From Chrysochromulina tobinii (taxonomy: Eukaryota > Haptophyta > Prymnesiales > Chrysochromulinaceae), in contig JWZX01002964.1 of the NCBI GenBank assembly GCA_001275005.1, forward strand, positions 1 through 31,621: a stretch of DNA of 31,621 nt, read 5' to 3'. Positions 1,774 through 27,200 of the stretch are shown in pieces. The notes beneath the pieces were generated by a model. It was given only the letters and a program-made list of their open reading frames with translations. It did not search any database and was not told where the DNA came from. The position numbers and the translations under genes are program-made. The stretch's first letter is position 1. The number at the start of each line of letters is the position of its first letter.

Positions 1774-1847
1774 TCGGCACGAAGTCCTCCAGTACCCGCT
1801 TGCCGGGGGCTCCGATTGTGGGCGGTCACTATCATGATTCGTGCCGA
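1774..1847 (-). promoter_or_regulatory. SECIS element (selenocysteine insertion sequence) in the 3' UTR
   Basis: Reading the minus strand, this segment folds into a standard eukaryotic SECIS. Helix I is ten perfect base pairs: TCGGCACGAA (1847-1838) with TTCGTGCCGA (1783-1774). The 5' side of the quartet is ATGA at 1835-1832 and the 3' side is GGAG at 1790-1787, which supplies the GA. Helix II pairs AGTGACCGC (1830-1822) with GCGGGTACT (1799-1791), with one G-T wobble and one mismatch. The conserved apical AA is at 1817-1816, 14 nt after the ATGA, within the normal range. A small extra stem (TCGG with CCGG) after the AA suggests form 2. It lies about 40 nt after the TAG stop and about 260 nt after the in-frame TGA. 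Its role is to recruit SBP2 and eEFSec so that the TGA is read as Sec. Confidence 0.88.
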
Positions 1848-1884
1848 CTCTCGTGTGGCGGATACCATCTCGTGGACTCCTTTA

Positions 1885-2301
1885 CTAGCCGAGGAAGGCC
1901 ACTATCTTGCGGAAGTCATTGCCCGCAAATTTATCAACCAACTTGCCCGAAGAGATAAGCAAGATGGTAGGCACATAGCCAGTCGAAAACTCGGGAGAGT
2001 TGAGTTTATCAAAATCGCCGATAGCAAATGTCGCTTTGCCCTCGAATTCCTCGCTCCCGAAAGTCGCAGCAAACTTTGCGGGATTGCAACCACCTCACCA
2101 AGAGGCCGTGAGATAGACAACAGCCTTGCCACTCTGCGCGAACAGGGCTTTCAGCTGCGACTTGCCGTCAATCGCAACCACCGAGCCAGCCTGGACTTGC
2201 TCGAGTTCGGCGATCGGCACCGAAGGTGCTCGGCGTCCGCAAAAGAGCATGGAGGCGAGCGCGCCCGCGGCTATCACACCTCCGATGATGACCATCGACA
2301 T
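1885..2301 (-). CDS. Membrane-anchored thioredoxin-fold selenoprotein (TGA read as Sec at residue 69)
   Basis: The 138-residue protein starts at ATG 2301 and ends at TAG 1885-1887. An in-frame TGA at 2097-2095 is read here as selenocysteine. Residues 2-21 (MVIIGGVIAAGALASMLFCG) form a hydrophobic anchor or signal. The thioredoxin features are: strand KAVVYLTASW, active site W-U-G-G-C at 68-72, then an in-frame remainder with the cis-proline segment GYVPTILLISSGKLVDKFAG (Pro 111), matching the VPT...G...DKF.G pattern of thioredoxins. Sec replaces the first, attacking cysteine of CxxC. Both sides of the TGA stay in one frame and make one complete domain, and a SECIS sits downstream. The likely role is thiol-disulfide exchange at a membrane; substrate and compartment are unknown. 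Calling this two fragments or a pseudogene would leave the SECIS unexplained. Confidence 0.88.
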
Positions 2302-21425: not shown

Positions 21426-22259
21426 ATGGTTCCCATTCTTGTCCTAGCTGCTCTTAGCGTCGCCGCCTCGGGTCAGCAAGCGGGGGCCGCTCAGCGGGCT
21501 GATTACTATCACGTGGTTGAAGTGTTTGACAGCGACTCAACATCCATCGATCAGCTGATTTCCGTGCTGACAGACAAGCTCGGCGCCACTGAGGATAAGG
21601 TGCAGCCACTCATTGGAAAATTGGAGAAGCACGGCAAGGCCGTACTGGTCGCAGGCTCCGAAGAGTCTTGCAACGAAGCTGCCAAGATGTTCATCGAAAT
21701 CGGCATGAAGGCGGAGGTACGACCCTTGTCCGTCACTGACATGCCAAGCGAGTATGATGAGTCGGATGTGGTCGTGGCAGGCGCCGAGAAGCTGCAGGAG
21801 GTGCTCGAGGGTGGCAAGGGTGCATTGGTCGCTTTTCACGCGCCGTGGTGTGGCCACTGCAAGACGATGATCCCGGCGCTCAAGGAGGCTGCCAGCACGC
21901 TCAAGGCGGACGGAGTGCCCGTTCTTGCCATCGATGGGCAGAGCAGCCCGGAGCTGGCCGCGCAGCTAGGCGTGCGCGCCTACCCCGCCCTCAAGTGGCT
22001 CAAGTTGGTCAGCGGCTCCAATGAAGATGAGGTCGCTTTGGGCAGCGCCGACTACAATGGGCCACGTGACGCAGCATCGCTGGTCAAGTTCGCCAAAGCG
22101 GCGAGCGCAGCGACGGCCATAAAGTCCAAGTTGCCTACCGGGGCGGACGGGGTGGACGAGGCCGCTGCCCGGCCTGAGAGCAAGCTCGGCGAGAGTAAGG
22201 TGGGCGGCAGCAGCGTTCAGAAGGCGAAGCTGCCGGCTGAGGCGGCTGCGGCTGCGTGA
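21426..22259 (+). CDS. Protein disulfide isomerase-like protein, single thioredoxin domain
   Basis: The 277-residue protein has a clear signal peptide (MVPILVLAALSVAASG), an N-terminal region (about 25-110, YYHVVEVFDSDSTSIDQLIS ... GMKAEVRPL) and one thioredoxin domain (about 115-230) with the active site HAPWCGHCKTM (W141, C142, C145) and a cis-proline segment GVRAYPALKW. WCGHC is the oxidising PDI motif, so the role is disulfide formation or isomerisation in the secretory pathway. There is no KDEL-type signal; the C-terminus is an Ala/Lys-rich tail ending AAAAA, so retention may differ, or the protein may pass on to the plastid. The N-terminal region, with its duplex helix-strand layout, recalls the ClpS/L7-L12 C-terminal fold, a tentative view. 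ATG 21426 is chosen because the upstream open frame has only GTG. Confidence 0.82.
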   Translation: MVPILVLAALSVAASGQQAGAAQRADYYHVVEVFDSDSTSIDQLISVLTDKLGATEDKVQPLIGKLEKHGKAVLVAGSEESCNEAAKMFIEIGMKAEVRPLSVTDMPSEYDESDVVVAGAEKLQEVLEGGKGALVAFHAPWCGHCKTMIPALKEAASTLKADGVPVLAIDGQSSPELAAQLGVRAYPALKWLKLVSGSNEDEVALGSADYNGPRDAASLVKFAKAASAATAIKSKLPTGADGVDEAAARPESKLGESKVGGSSVQKAKLPAEAAAAA

Positions 22260-24272: not shown

Positions 24273-27200
24273 TCAGCGCCCATTGGCACGAACGGAAAGG
24301 CCGCGTTTCGAGATGGGAGCATCATTGGCGCGTTTCGAGATGGGAGCATCATTGGCGCGTTTCGAGAGCGGAGCATCATTGAGGCGCTTGGAAATAGGAG
24401 CGTCATTGACGCGTTTCGAAATGGGAGCATCGCTGGCGCGCTTGCTGATGGGAGCTCCGCTAGCGCGCTTGGAGCTCATCGGTACGCCATTCTCTTTCGT
24501 AGTTGCACGATTCGAGGCCAGCTTCTTCAAAGGAGGCGGCAGCGGCTTTGCTGCCGCCTTAACCGCCTTCTCGACCTCCCTCACAGGATCGGCAGGTCTC
24601 ATGACCTTCTCGATTTGAGCACCGAAGTCAGATGCGGCGTTTTGAGCTGCGCCCCAGAGCTGTTCGAGAAGTTTCGACGGGGTCGTAGGAAGAGGCTTGT
24701 TCTCAACGTCCTTGACGCGGCGCTCGCCCGCGCAGGGGATGTGATCAGCATCCTTGACATGACGAACGCCCGCGCACACTTTCTCGTCGGCAGCCTTGAC
24801 ATGGCGAACGCCAGCGCACAGGTGCTCATCATCATCGATGACATGGCGCACGCCCGCGCAGACCTTCTCGTCGTCGTCCTTGACGTGACGCACACCTGCA
24901 CACACCTTCTCGTCGGCAGCCTTCACGTGACGCACACCGGCGCAGACCTTCTCGTCGTCGTCCTTGACGTGACGCACGCCCGCGCATACCTTCTCGTCGG
25001 CTGCCTTCACGTGACGCACGCCAGCGCACAGGTGCTCATCGTCATCGATGACATGGCGCACGCCCGCACAGACCTTCTCGTCGGCAGCCTTCACGTGACG
25101 CACGCCAGCGCACAGGTGCTCATCGTCATCGATGACATGGCGAACGCCCGCGCAAACCTTCTCGTCGGCATCCTTGACGTGACGAACGCCCGCGCAGACC
25201 TTCTCGTCGTCGTCCTTGACGTGACGCACACCTGCACACACCTTCTCGTCGGCAGCCTTGACGTGACGCACACCGGCGCAGACCTTCTCGTCGTCGTCCT
25301 TGACGTGGCGCACGCCTGCACATACTTTCTCGTCGGCATCTTTGACGTGACGCATGCCCGCGCAAACTTTCTCGTCGTCGTCCTTGACATGACGCACGCC
25401 CGCGCATACCTTCTCGTCGTCGTCCTTGACGTGACGCACGCCCGCGCATACCTTCTCGTCGGCTGCCTTCACGTGACGCACGCCAGCGCACAGGTGCTCA
25501 TCGTCATCGATGACATGGCGCACGCCCGCACAGACCTTCTCGTCGGCTGCTTTCACGTGTCGCACGCCAGCGCACAGGTGCTCATCGTCATCGATGACAT
25601 GGCGAACGCCCGCGCAAACCTTCTCGTCGGCAGCCTTGACGTGACGAACGCCCGCGCAGACCTTCTCGTCGTCGTCCTTGACGTGACGCACGCCCGCGCA
25701 TACCTTCTCGTCGGCATCTTTGACGTGACGCACGCCAGCGCAAACTTTCTCGTCGTCGTCCTTGACGTGGCGCACGCCTGCACATACTTTCTCGTCGGCA
25801 TCTTTGACGTGACGCACGCCCGCGCATACCTTCTCGTCGTCGTCTTTGACTCGATTTGTTCCAGCACAAGGTACGACGTCTTTATCCTTCTTCTTCTTCT
25901 TGATTCCAATCGTCTTCCTCTCAGAGACGTTCCCCTTTTTGCGAGCAGAGCCCCTGCATTTCTTCTCGTCGGAATCCTTGACGTGACGAACGCCCGCGCA
26001 CACCTTCTCATCAGCGTTTACGACACGACGAACGCCAGCGCACAAGTGCTCATCGTCATCGATAATATGACGCACGCCCGCGCACTTCTTCTCGTCGGCA
26101 TCTTTGACATGGCGCACACCCGCGCAGATCCGCTCGTCATCGTCCTTGACGTGGCGAACACCCGCACAGACCTTCTCGTCGGCGTCCTTGACATGGCGCA
26201 CACCCGCGCAAAGCCGCTCGTCATCGTCCTTGACATGGCGCACACCCGCGCAGAGCCGCTCATCATCGTCCTTGACGCGGCGAACACCAGCACAGACCTT
26301 CTCGTCGGCATTCTTGACATGGCGCTCGCCCGCGCATTTGATTGAGTCGTGATCGACAAAGTGATGCTCGCCCGCGCACGGGACGTCGTCGATGTTCTTG
26401 GTGCGGCGTTCGCCCGCGCACGCCTTGTTTTCCTTATGCATGAAGTTGAGGAGGCGCGCCTTGTTTTTTTCGATCATTTTGCTCACGGCACTCTCTTTGT
26501 GCTGCGGCGCCGCGTTCTCCTTGTCACGTTCTGTTCGCTGCGACTTAGCCTTGCCCTTCTTGCCCCTTTTGGTACGGCTCTTTCGAGAGCTCTGAGCTTT
26601 CGCCTCGGACTCATGCTTCGTGAACTTAACGTCCGCCACCTCGTCGCTCTCGAACATGTGCATGTACTGGCCCATGTTTCGAAGCGCGTTCGTGAGTGGC
26701 GCGCCAACCCCACGGAAAGCCTTTGGCGCTTCCTCAGCCGCATCCGCAGCGGCGCTCTTTGCGCAGTCAGCCGCGGGCCGCGCGCGCTTTAGCCGCCGCC
26801 ACTTCAGGCCTCTTGGAGCCCTCGTTTGCGTGGCCGAACATGTTGGCGAGGTCGAGCAGCTCCTTAGCGAGCTCGGAGCGCCACACGCCCTCGATTGGCT
26901 GGTCGGTTGGGAGCAGGGGCGGGGGGAAGGCCTTGCCTTCTTTCTTGAGCTTGATGCCTTCTTTGATCTTCGCCACCTTATCCTTTGTGGCGGTGCTCGT
27001 GCCCGGGTTGAACAGCGACGGAAAGGCAGCCGCCGGTCCAAGGTACTTCATGTTGTAGCCGAGGCCGGGGCGGGGTGGCGCCGGCATTGCATCCATCGAT
27101 GCAGACTCGTGGGTCACCGAGGTGTGATAGTCAAGCGGCTGGACGAGCGGCCTCTCCATCATGCCATTCTTCTGCATTTCGGGCTCTGCAACCATCGTCG

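Follow-up and report, generated by a model that had tools for sequence, protein, structure and literature searches.

Thioredoxin-fold selenoproteins in algae and bacteria

We describe the closest known systems from excerpts of the cited papers. EhSEP2 of the haptophyte Emiliania huxleyi is a PDI-like protein, labelled with 75Se, that has one thioredoxin domain and selenocysteine (Sec) as its first active-site residue (PMC6254913). For Ostreococcus and Thalassiosira, selenoproteins have been reported under the descriptions "thioredoxin-fold" and "thioredoxin-like" (PMC2375036). A broader survey reports 42 selenoprotein families in algae, counts 96 genes for selenoproteins in E. huxleyi, and includes several proteins that carry Sec in thioredoxin-like domains, such as PDI_a to PDI_e, TlpA and SymSEP (PMC7539508). 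In bacteria, thioredoxin selenoproteins with a PF00085 domain and a UxxC motif are described (PMC1088965, PMC13188914), and their Cys homologues are listed as widespread (PMC1088965).

Here we analyse a minus-strand locus at positions 1774-2301 of contig C1805 in the 53.15-Mb assembly of Chrysochromulina tobinii. The whole stretch analysed, 31,621 nts in length, is referred to as the window. We assign a probability of roughly 0.93 to the locus being a genuine selenoprotein gene in which UGA 69 is read as Sec by means of a SECIS element in the 3' UTR, and which encodes a thioredoxin-fold protein with the pair U69-C72. The initial annotation had already proposed Sec at this codon, and the proposal is supported by a paralogue with the same TGA and a matching hairpin, by the N-terminal relatives, 11 out of 11 of which break at this point, and by the tRNA-Sec, SepSecS and SelD genes found in the genome.

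A thioredoxin frame with an in-frame TGA

The coding region (1885-2301, minus strand) begins with an ATG at 2301 and extends through codon 138, which ends at 1888, to a TAG (1887-1885) with a TAA next to it. The sole stop within the 138-codon frame is the TGA of codon 69 (2097-2095), which read as Sec gives the motif W-U-G-G-C. The initial annotation described the frame as open on both sides of the TGA, and codon usage agrees with that description. Against a reference of 14 other ORFs of the window taken as genes, the log-odds are +0.22 before the TGA and +0.24 after it; for the 300-nt flanks, each of the three minus-strand frames gives a negative value. There is no in-frame ATG downstream of the TGA. 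As 11 of 15 long ORFs that we chose from the window terminate with TGA, this codon functions as a stop in the window.

The product matches the Pfam family PF00085 (Thioredoxin), with 29.2 bits against a cut-off of 23.5 when C is substituted for U. In an alignment to solved thioredoxins, the TGA falls on the first Cys of the WCxxC active site, as first annotated, with Trp preceding it and Cys72 (2086-2088) three residues on. Cys72, presumably the resolving cysteine, is kept in the paralogue and in the database relatives P0010 and P0012, and is not present in P0008. Pro111 of the sequence GYVPT (1969-1971) aligns with the thioredoxin cis-proline. The AlphaFold2 model has a mean pLDDT of 75, with ten-residue blocks at 84-94 for residues 41-138 and values below 50 for residues 1-27, and in a structure search it resembles PDB thioredoxin structures. 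These results bear on the case of a TGA that acts as a genuine stop, where the product would be the N-terminal 68 residues and the remainder a separate or remnant ORF. The protein database does have N- and C-terminal pieces as separate proteins, but such a product would be half a thioredoxin fold without a redox site, and the part after the TGA, with no in-frame ATG of its own, is still conserved. We regard a true stop as extremely unlikely.

Classical thioredoxins have a WCGPC motif and a buried Asp26. The window gene has W-U-G-G-C and, at the position of the buried acid, it has Tyr63 (2113-2115; placed by alignment to thioredoxins). Tyr occupies this position in 13 out of 13 sequences: each of the 11 N-terminal relatives has it, as do the window gene and the paralogue. 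Compared within the genome, 21 of 26 Cys-type sites have the buried acid, against none of five Sec-type sites; the comparison covers the 30 of 68 thioredoxin-domain matches that have loci, with L041, which has no W-C-x-x-C, dropped. The absence of the acid would fit a selenolate that needs little help with deprotonation, a hint drawn from five Sec sites belonging to two families.

The initial annotation described a 138-residue, N-terminally anchored protein. The 138 residues hold; what we find in place of a defined anchor is a hydrophobic stretch at residues 3-21 (2239-2295), followed by GRR, which is a possible signal anchor. It has a Kyte-Doolittle mean of 2.31 (2.17 in the relative P0014) and is kept in close relatives and in P0014, which is 54% identical. 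It is absent from the reading frame of the paralogue, and AlphaFold2 leaves it unstructured and with low confidence. By the positive-inside rule, the stretch and the GRR suggest an anchor that would leave the domain on the cytosolic side. The window copy may be tethered to a membrane with a cytosolic domain, and the paralogue would be a soluble form.

Several other features lie in the window. On the plus strand, a 243-residue ORF (1834-2565) runs antisense across the selenoprotein gene; the two paralogues differ most often at the third codon positions that the minus-strand frame defines. An (AGTTC)n tandem array and an inverted copy (2459-2496 and 2587-2604), some 90-110 nts apart, lie upstream of this gene and could form a long hairpin or a cruciform. 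A Cys-type thioredoxin-domain protein (FHAPWCGHC) is encoded on the plus strand at 21426-22256. On the minus strand, positions 24276-26675 encode a protein of 800 residues and contain a 42-nt repeat (e.g. CAGVRHVKDADEKV) some 38 times. This protein matches the Pfam Galaxin_repeat model with 97.3 bits (cut-off 28), galaxin being a coral skeletal-matrix protein; composition may contribute to the match, since the protein also matches a beta-roll model.

A SECIS-type hairpin in the 3' UTR

A hairpin with the features of a SECIS element occupies positions 1847-1774 of the minus strand, beginning 37 nts past the TAG; it is identified by our own scan, is rare in shuffles and has a core in common with the paralogue. 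Helix I has 10 perfect pairs (1847-1838 with 1783-1774), the quartet consists of ATGA (1835-1832) and GA (1789-1788), and an apical AA (1817-1816) is found 14 nts past the quartet, a distance that is 11 in the paralogue. An extra mini-stem has 4 bp. The fold and the scan recover the 10-bp helix I, the ATGA/GA quartet and the small extra stem of the initial annotation. The 9-bp helix II has to be corrected: in the fold of the scan, helix II (1831-1822/1799-1790) has 8 pairs, arranged as 4+4 around a 2x2 loop, and not 9 clean pairs.

Run on the two strands of the window (63 kb), a strict SECIS scan reports three candidates, and a single hairpin only at 1847-1774. When the window is dinucleotide-shuffled 100 times (6.3 Mb, both strands), the same scan gives 33 hairpin candidates, of which four score as high, so that about 1e-4 equally good candidates are expected per given 200 nts of one strand. 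The 3' UTR of the window gene folds with -51 kcal/mol (z = -2.33), and 6 of 200 shuffles are as good. As a point against the hairpin, the Rfam SECIS_1 model makes no call in the window or at the locus; across the whole genome, it has none above the cut-off among the 133 of 386 first-look candidates that were scored.

We also ran the scan on 11 TGA-bearing control loci. For the GPX matches among the controls, 10 of 13 had loci and the eight with a TGA entered; a ninth match with a TGA but without a locus was left out. The strict scan finds a hairpin in one of the 11 loci, and a relaxed version finds convincing hairpins in four. The relaxed scan also ranks an unlikely hairpin, 1235 nts past the stop of the paralogue, over the paralogue's own. 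The strict scan is specific, not sensitive.

A diverged paralogue with the same TGA

The only other close match in the assembly is at C2003:6569-6868; the next, on C792, has 35% identity and no stop. The C2003 paralogue has 71% identity to the window gene, and it has one TGA, at the same codon, with UGGC and Cys72 kept. Conservation reaches the TGA on both flanks (KAVVYLSATW-TGA-GGCNPGKF). Between the two genes, dN is 0.277 and dS is 1.38 before the TGA (dN/dS about 0.20), and dN is 0.161 and dS is 0.85 after it (dN/dS about 0.19). Over the 69 codons after the TGA, the differences at codon positions 1, 2 and 3 are 12, 6 and 29. Judged from these substitutions, the C-terminal part after the TGA is under purifying selection.

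The UTRs of the two genes can also be compared. The distance from the stop to the ATGA is 49 nts in the window gene and 50 nts in the paralogue, and the paralogue UTR folds with z = -2.82, with 1 of 200 shuffles as good. The SECIS arms have 18/20 and 20/22 identical positions; elsewhere, identities are 20/34 from the stop to the SECIS, 23/36 in the inner part and 19/29 in the stretch past the SECIS. The count for helix I covers 9 pairs: seven are unchanged, one is compensated (C-G/A-U), and one no longer pairs in the paralogue. In a shuffle control, one compensated helix-I pair is not separable from chance (248/500), a comparison that involves two sequences and helix I only.

The paralogue weighs on two other explanations of the TGA. 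If the TGA sat in an intron, the mature protein would have no Sec. Mechanically, 175 frame-keeping GT/GC...AG combinations could remove the TGA, and the relatives P0010 and P0013 look spliced near this point. Any such splice would, however, remove residues of the thioredoxin active site. In the paralogue, conservation extends to the TGA from either side; codon usage in the window gene is coding before and after the TGA, and the 3' SECIS would be left unexplained. We consider an intron very unlikely. A second explanation is a decayed gene or a sequencing error, with TGA in place of TGC or TGT, in which case the real protein would carry Cys or be cut short. A single step separates TGA from either Cys codon, but the diverged paralogue has the same TGA, the C-terminal part is under purifying selection, the 11 N-terminal relatives all break at this position, and a SECIS-like hairpin is found downstream of both genes. 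We give decay or error hardly any weight, and continue with UGA 69 as a Sec codon.

Database relatives break at the probable Sec site

Three protein searches identify 46 related clusters, together with eight generic thioredoxins. In the second search, 28 of 34 matches belong to the family; the third, which scored the 7984 candidates that had most words in common, adds 18 new ones among 37 matches. The 46 clusters are pieces, and as two clusters may represent one gene, the number of genes is lower. One relative has a named source, P0015 from Prymnesium polylepis. A further cluster, P0045 (196 aa), has the C-terminal thioredoxin part followed by a Cys-rich extension. The profile built from the family (A6) has 15 rows chosen from 30 family sequences, and the fold alignment (A8) has 22 chosen rows; P0014 was misaligned and is omitted from both. 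Searches of viral contigs, by single protein or by profile, find no relatives. In contigs of other genomes we find eight loci, seven campylobacterial and one clostridial, with 33-36% identity.

The relatives divide at the Sec site. All 11 N-terminal relatives stop at the Trp that precedes the TGA position, and 35 clusters are C-terminal; the relatives are known as protein sequences, and we infer the TGA at their break. Homologues that end at the TGA had been named in the initial annotation as evidence against Sec. Such endings do occur in every N-terminal relative, and they are accompanied by the 35 clusters of matching C-terminal pieces. We do not take them as refuting, because an ordinary gene caller breaks at a TGA and the C-terminal pieces exist.

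Most C-terminal pieces start past the site or have unalignable residues ahead of it. In ungapped register, three have a letter other than Sec at the site, each near the called start: Ser in P0008, Ala in P0012 and Phe in P0010. P0008 has S-S-A-G in place of U-G-G-C. For these three, the gene models may be wrong, or the proteins may be forms that have no Sec. None of the 46 related clusters has a Cys at the Sec site. On the lack of a conserved Cys or Sec, which had also been proposed as evidence against the Sec reading, the outcome is mixed: both genes that we read as DNA have the TGA, no family member with Cys is found, and three fragments have Ser, Ala or Phe at the site.

Selenium machinery and other selenoprotein candidates in the genome

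The genome has a tRNA-Sec with 70.7 bits (cut-off 47), a score over the cut-off being obtained in 5 of 14 control genomes, as well as SepSecS (417 bits) and SelD (293 bits). We do not find eEFSec: the selB model has 16 matches at 14 places in the genome, which look like other translational GTPases, as named by eye, and PF21208 has no genome match in a search that had no positive control. This counts against the Sec reading. Of the 13 GPX-domain matches in the genome, nine contain one TGA, as do four of the 68 thioredoxin-domain matches; neither TAA nor TAG occurs within any of these 13 and 68 matches. Neither the window gene nor its paralogue scores well enough to be counted in the 68. Of the four thioredoxin-domain matches with a TGA, three are of the APWUGHC type (contigs C2059, C2039 and C2194). 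The three APWUGHC loci with a TGA (L032, L033 and L039) all have Lys in the buried-acid position.

Proposed function and comparison with known selenoproteins

We propose that UGA 69 is decoded as Sec under the direction of the SECIS in the 3' UTR, and that the product would be a small protein of the thioredoxin fold, whose redox pair would be U69 and C72 of W-U-G-G-C. From the UxxC layout with Sec first, it is most likely a thiol-disulfide oxidoreductase. In the proposed reaction, the U69 selenolate would attack either a disulfide or some oxidised substrate, C72 would resolve the mixed selenenylsulfide, and recharging could be by thioredoxin reductase or by the glutathione system.

This gene would add a probable unnamed selenoprotein family to those of algae, and it is an example of a family split by annotation at the catalytic residue. 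Tentatively, and with somewhat less than even confidence, we also consider a distinct marine-algal thioredoxin family in which Sec is almost obligate. Consistent with it are the lack of a Cys form among the relatives, the Tyr in place of the acid, the anchored and soluble versions, and the occurrence of only broken pieces in the database searched. Our rating of it is lowered by the residues other than Sec at the site in P0010 and P0012, as well as in P0008. If the family truly has no Cys forms, these algae may need selenium for a thioredoxin step that is done elsewhere with sulfur, and such a dependence, if true, bears on selenium as a haptophyte nutrient.

No paper naming the window protein appears among the open-licence literature matches listed. 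In the excerpts of the published descriptions, the protein resembles EhSEP2 in coming from a haptophyte and in having a single thioredoxin domain with Sec as the first active-site residue (PMC6254913). The two differ in motif, the one feature on which we compare their sequences: EhSEP2 has UGHC, whereas the window gene has UGGC and so departs from the PDI-type [C/U]GHC. The UGHC motif of EhSEP2 is present in three separate proteins of this genome, those on C2059, C2039 and C2194. The Ostreococcus and Thalassiosira selenoproteins share with it the thioredoxin fold, the Sec and an origin in unicellular algae, a likeness by description only (PMC2375036), and they could belong to the same family. 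Among the algal proteins with Sec in thioredoxin-like domains, PDI_e has a GUGUU motif, unlike the single Sec and UGGC found here, and for algal TlpA a hemerythrin domain has been described, whereas a Pfam scan of the window protein finds PF00085 alone; the term UGGC is absent from the main text of that survey (PMC7539508). With the bacterial thioredoxin selenoproteins, the window protein has the Pfam family and the UxxC motif in common, but we find no close Cys form of it. The window protein is thus a probable unnamed branch of the known UxxC thioredoxin-fold kind.
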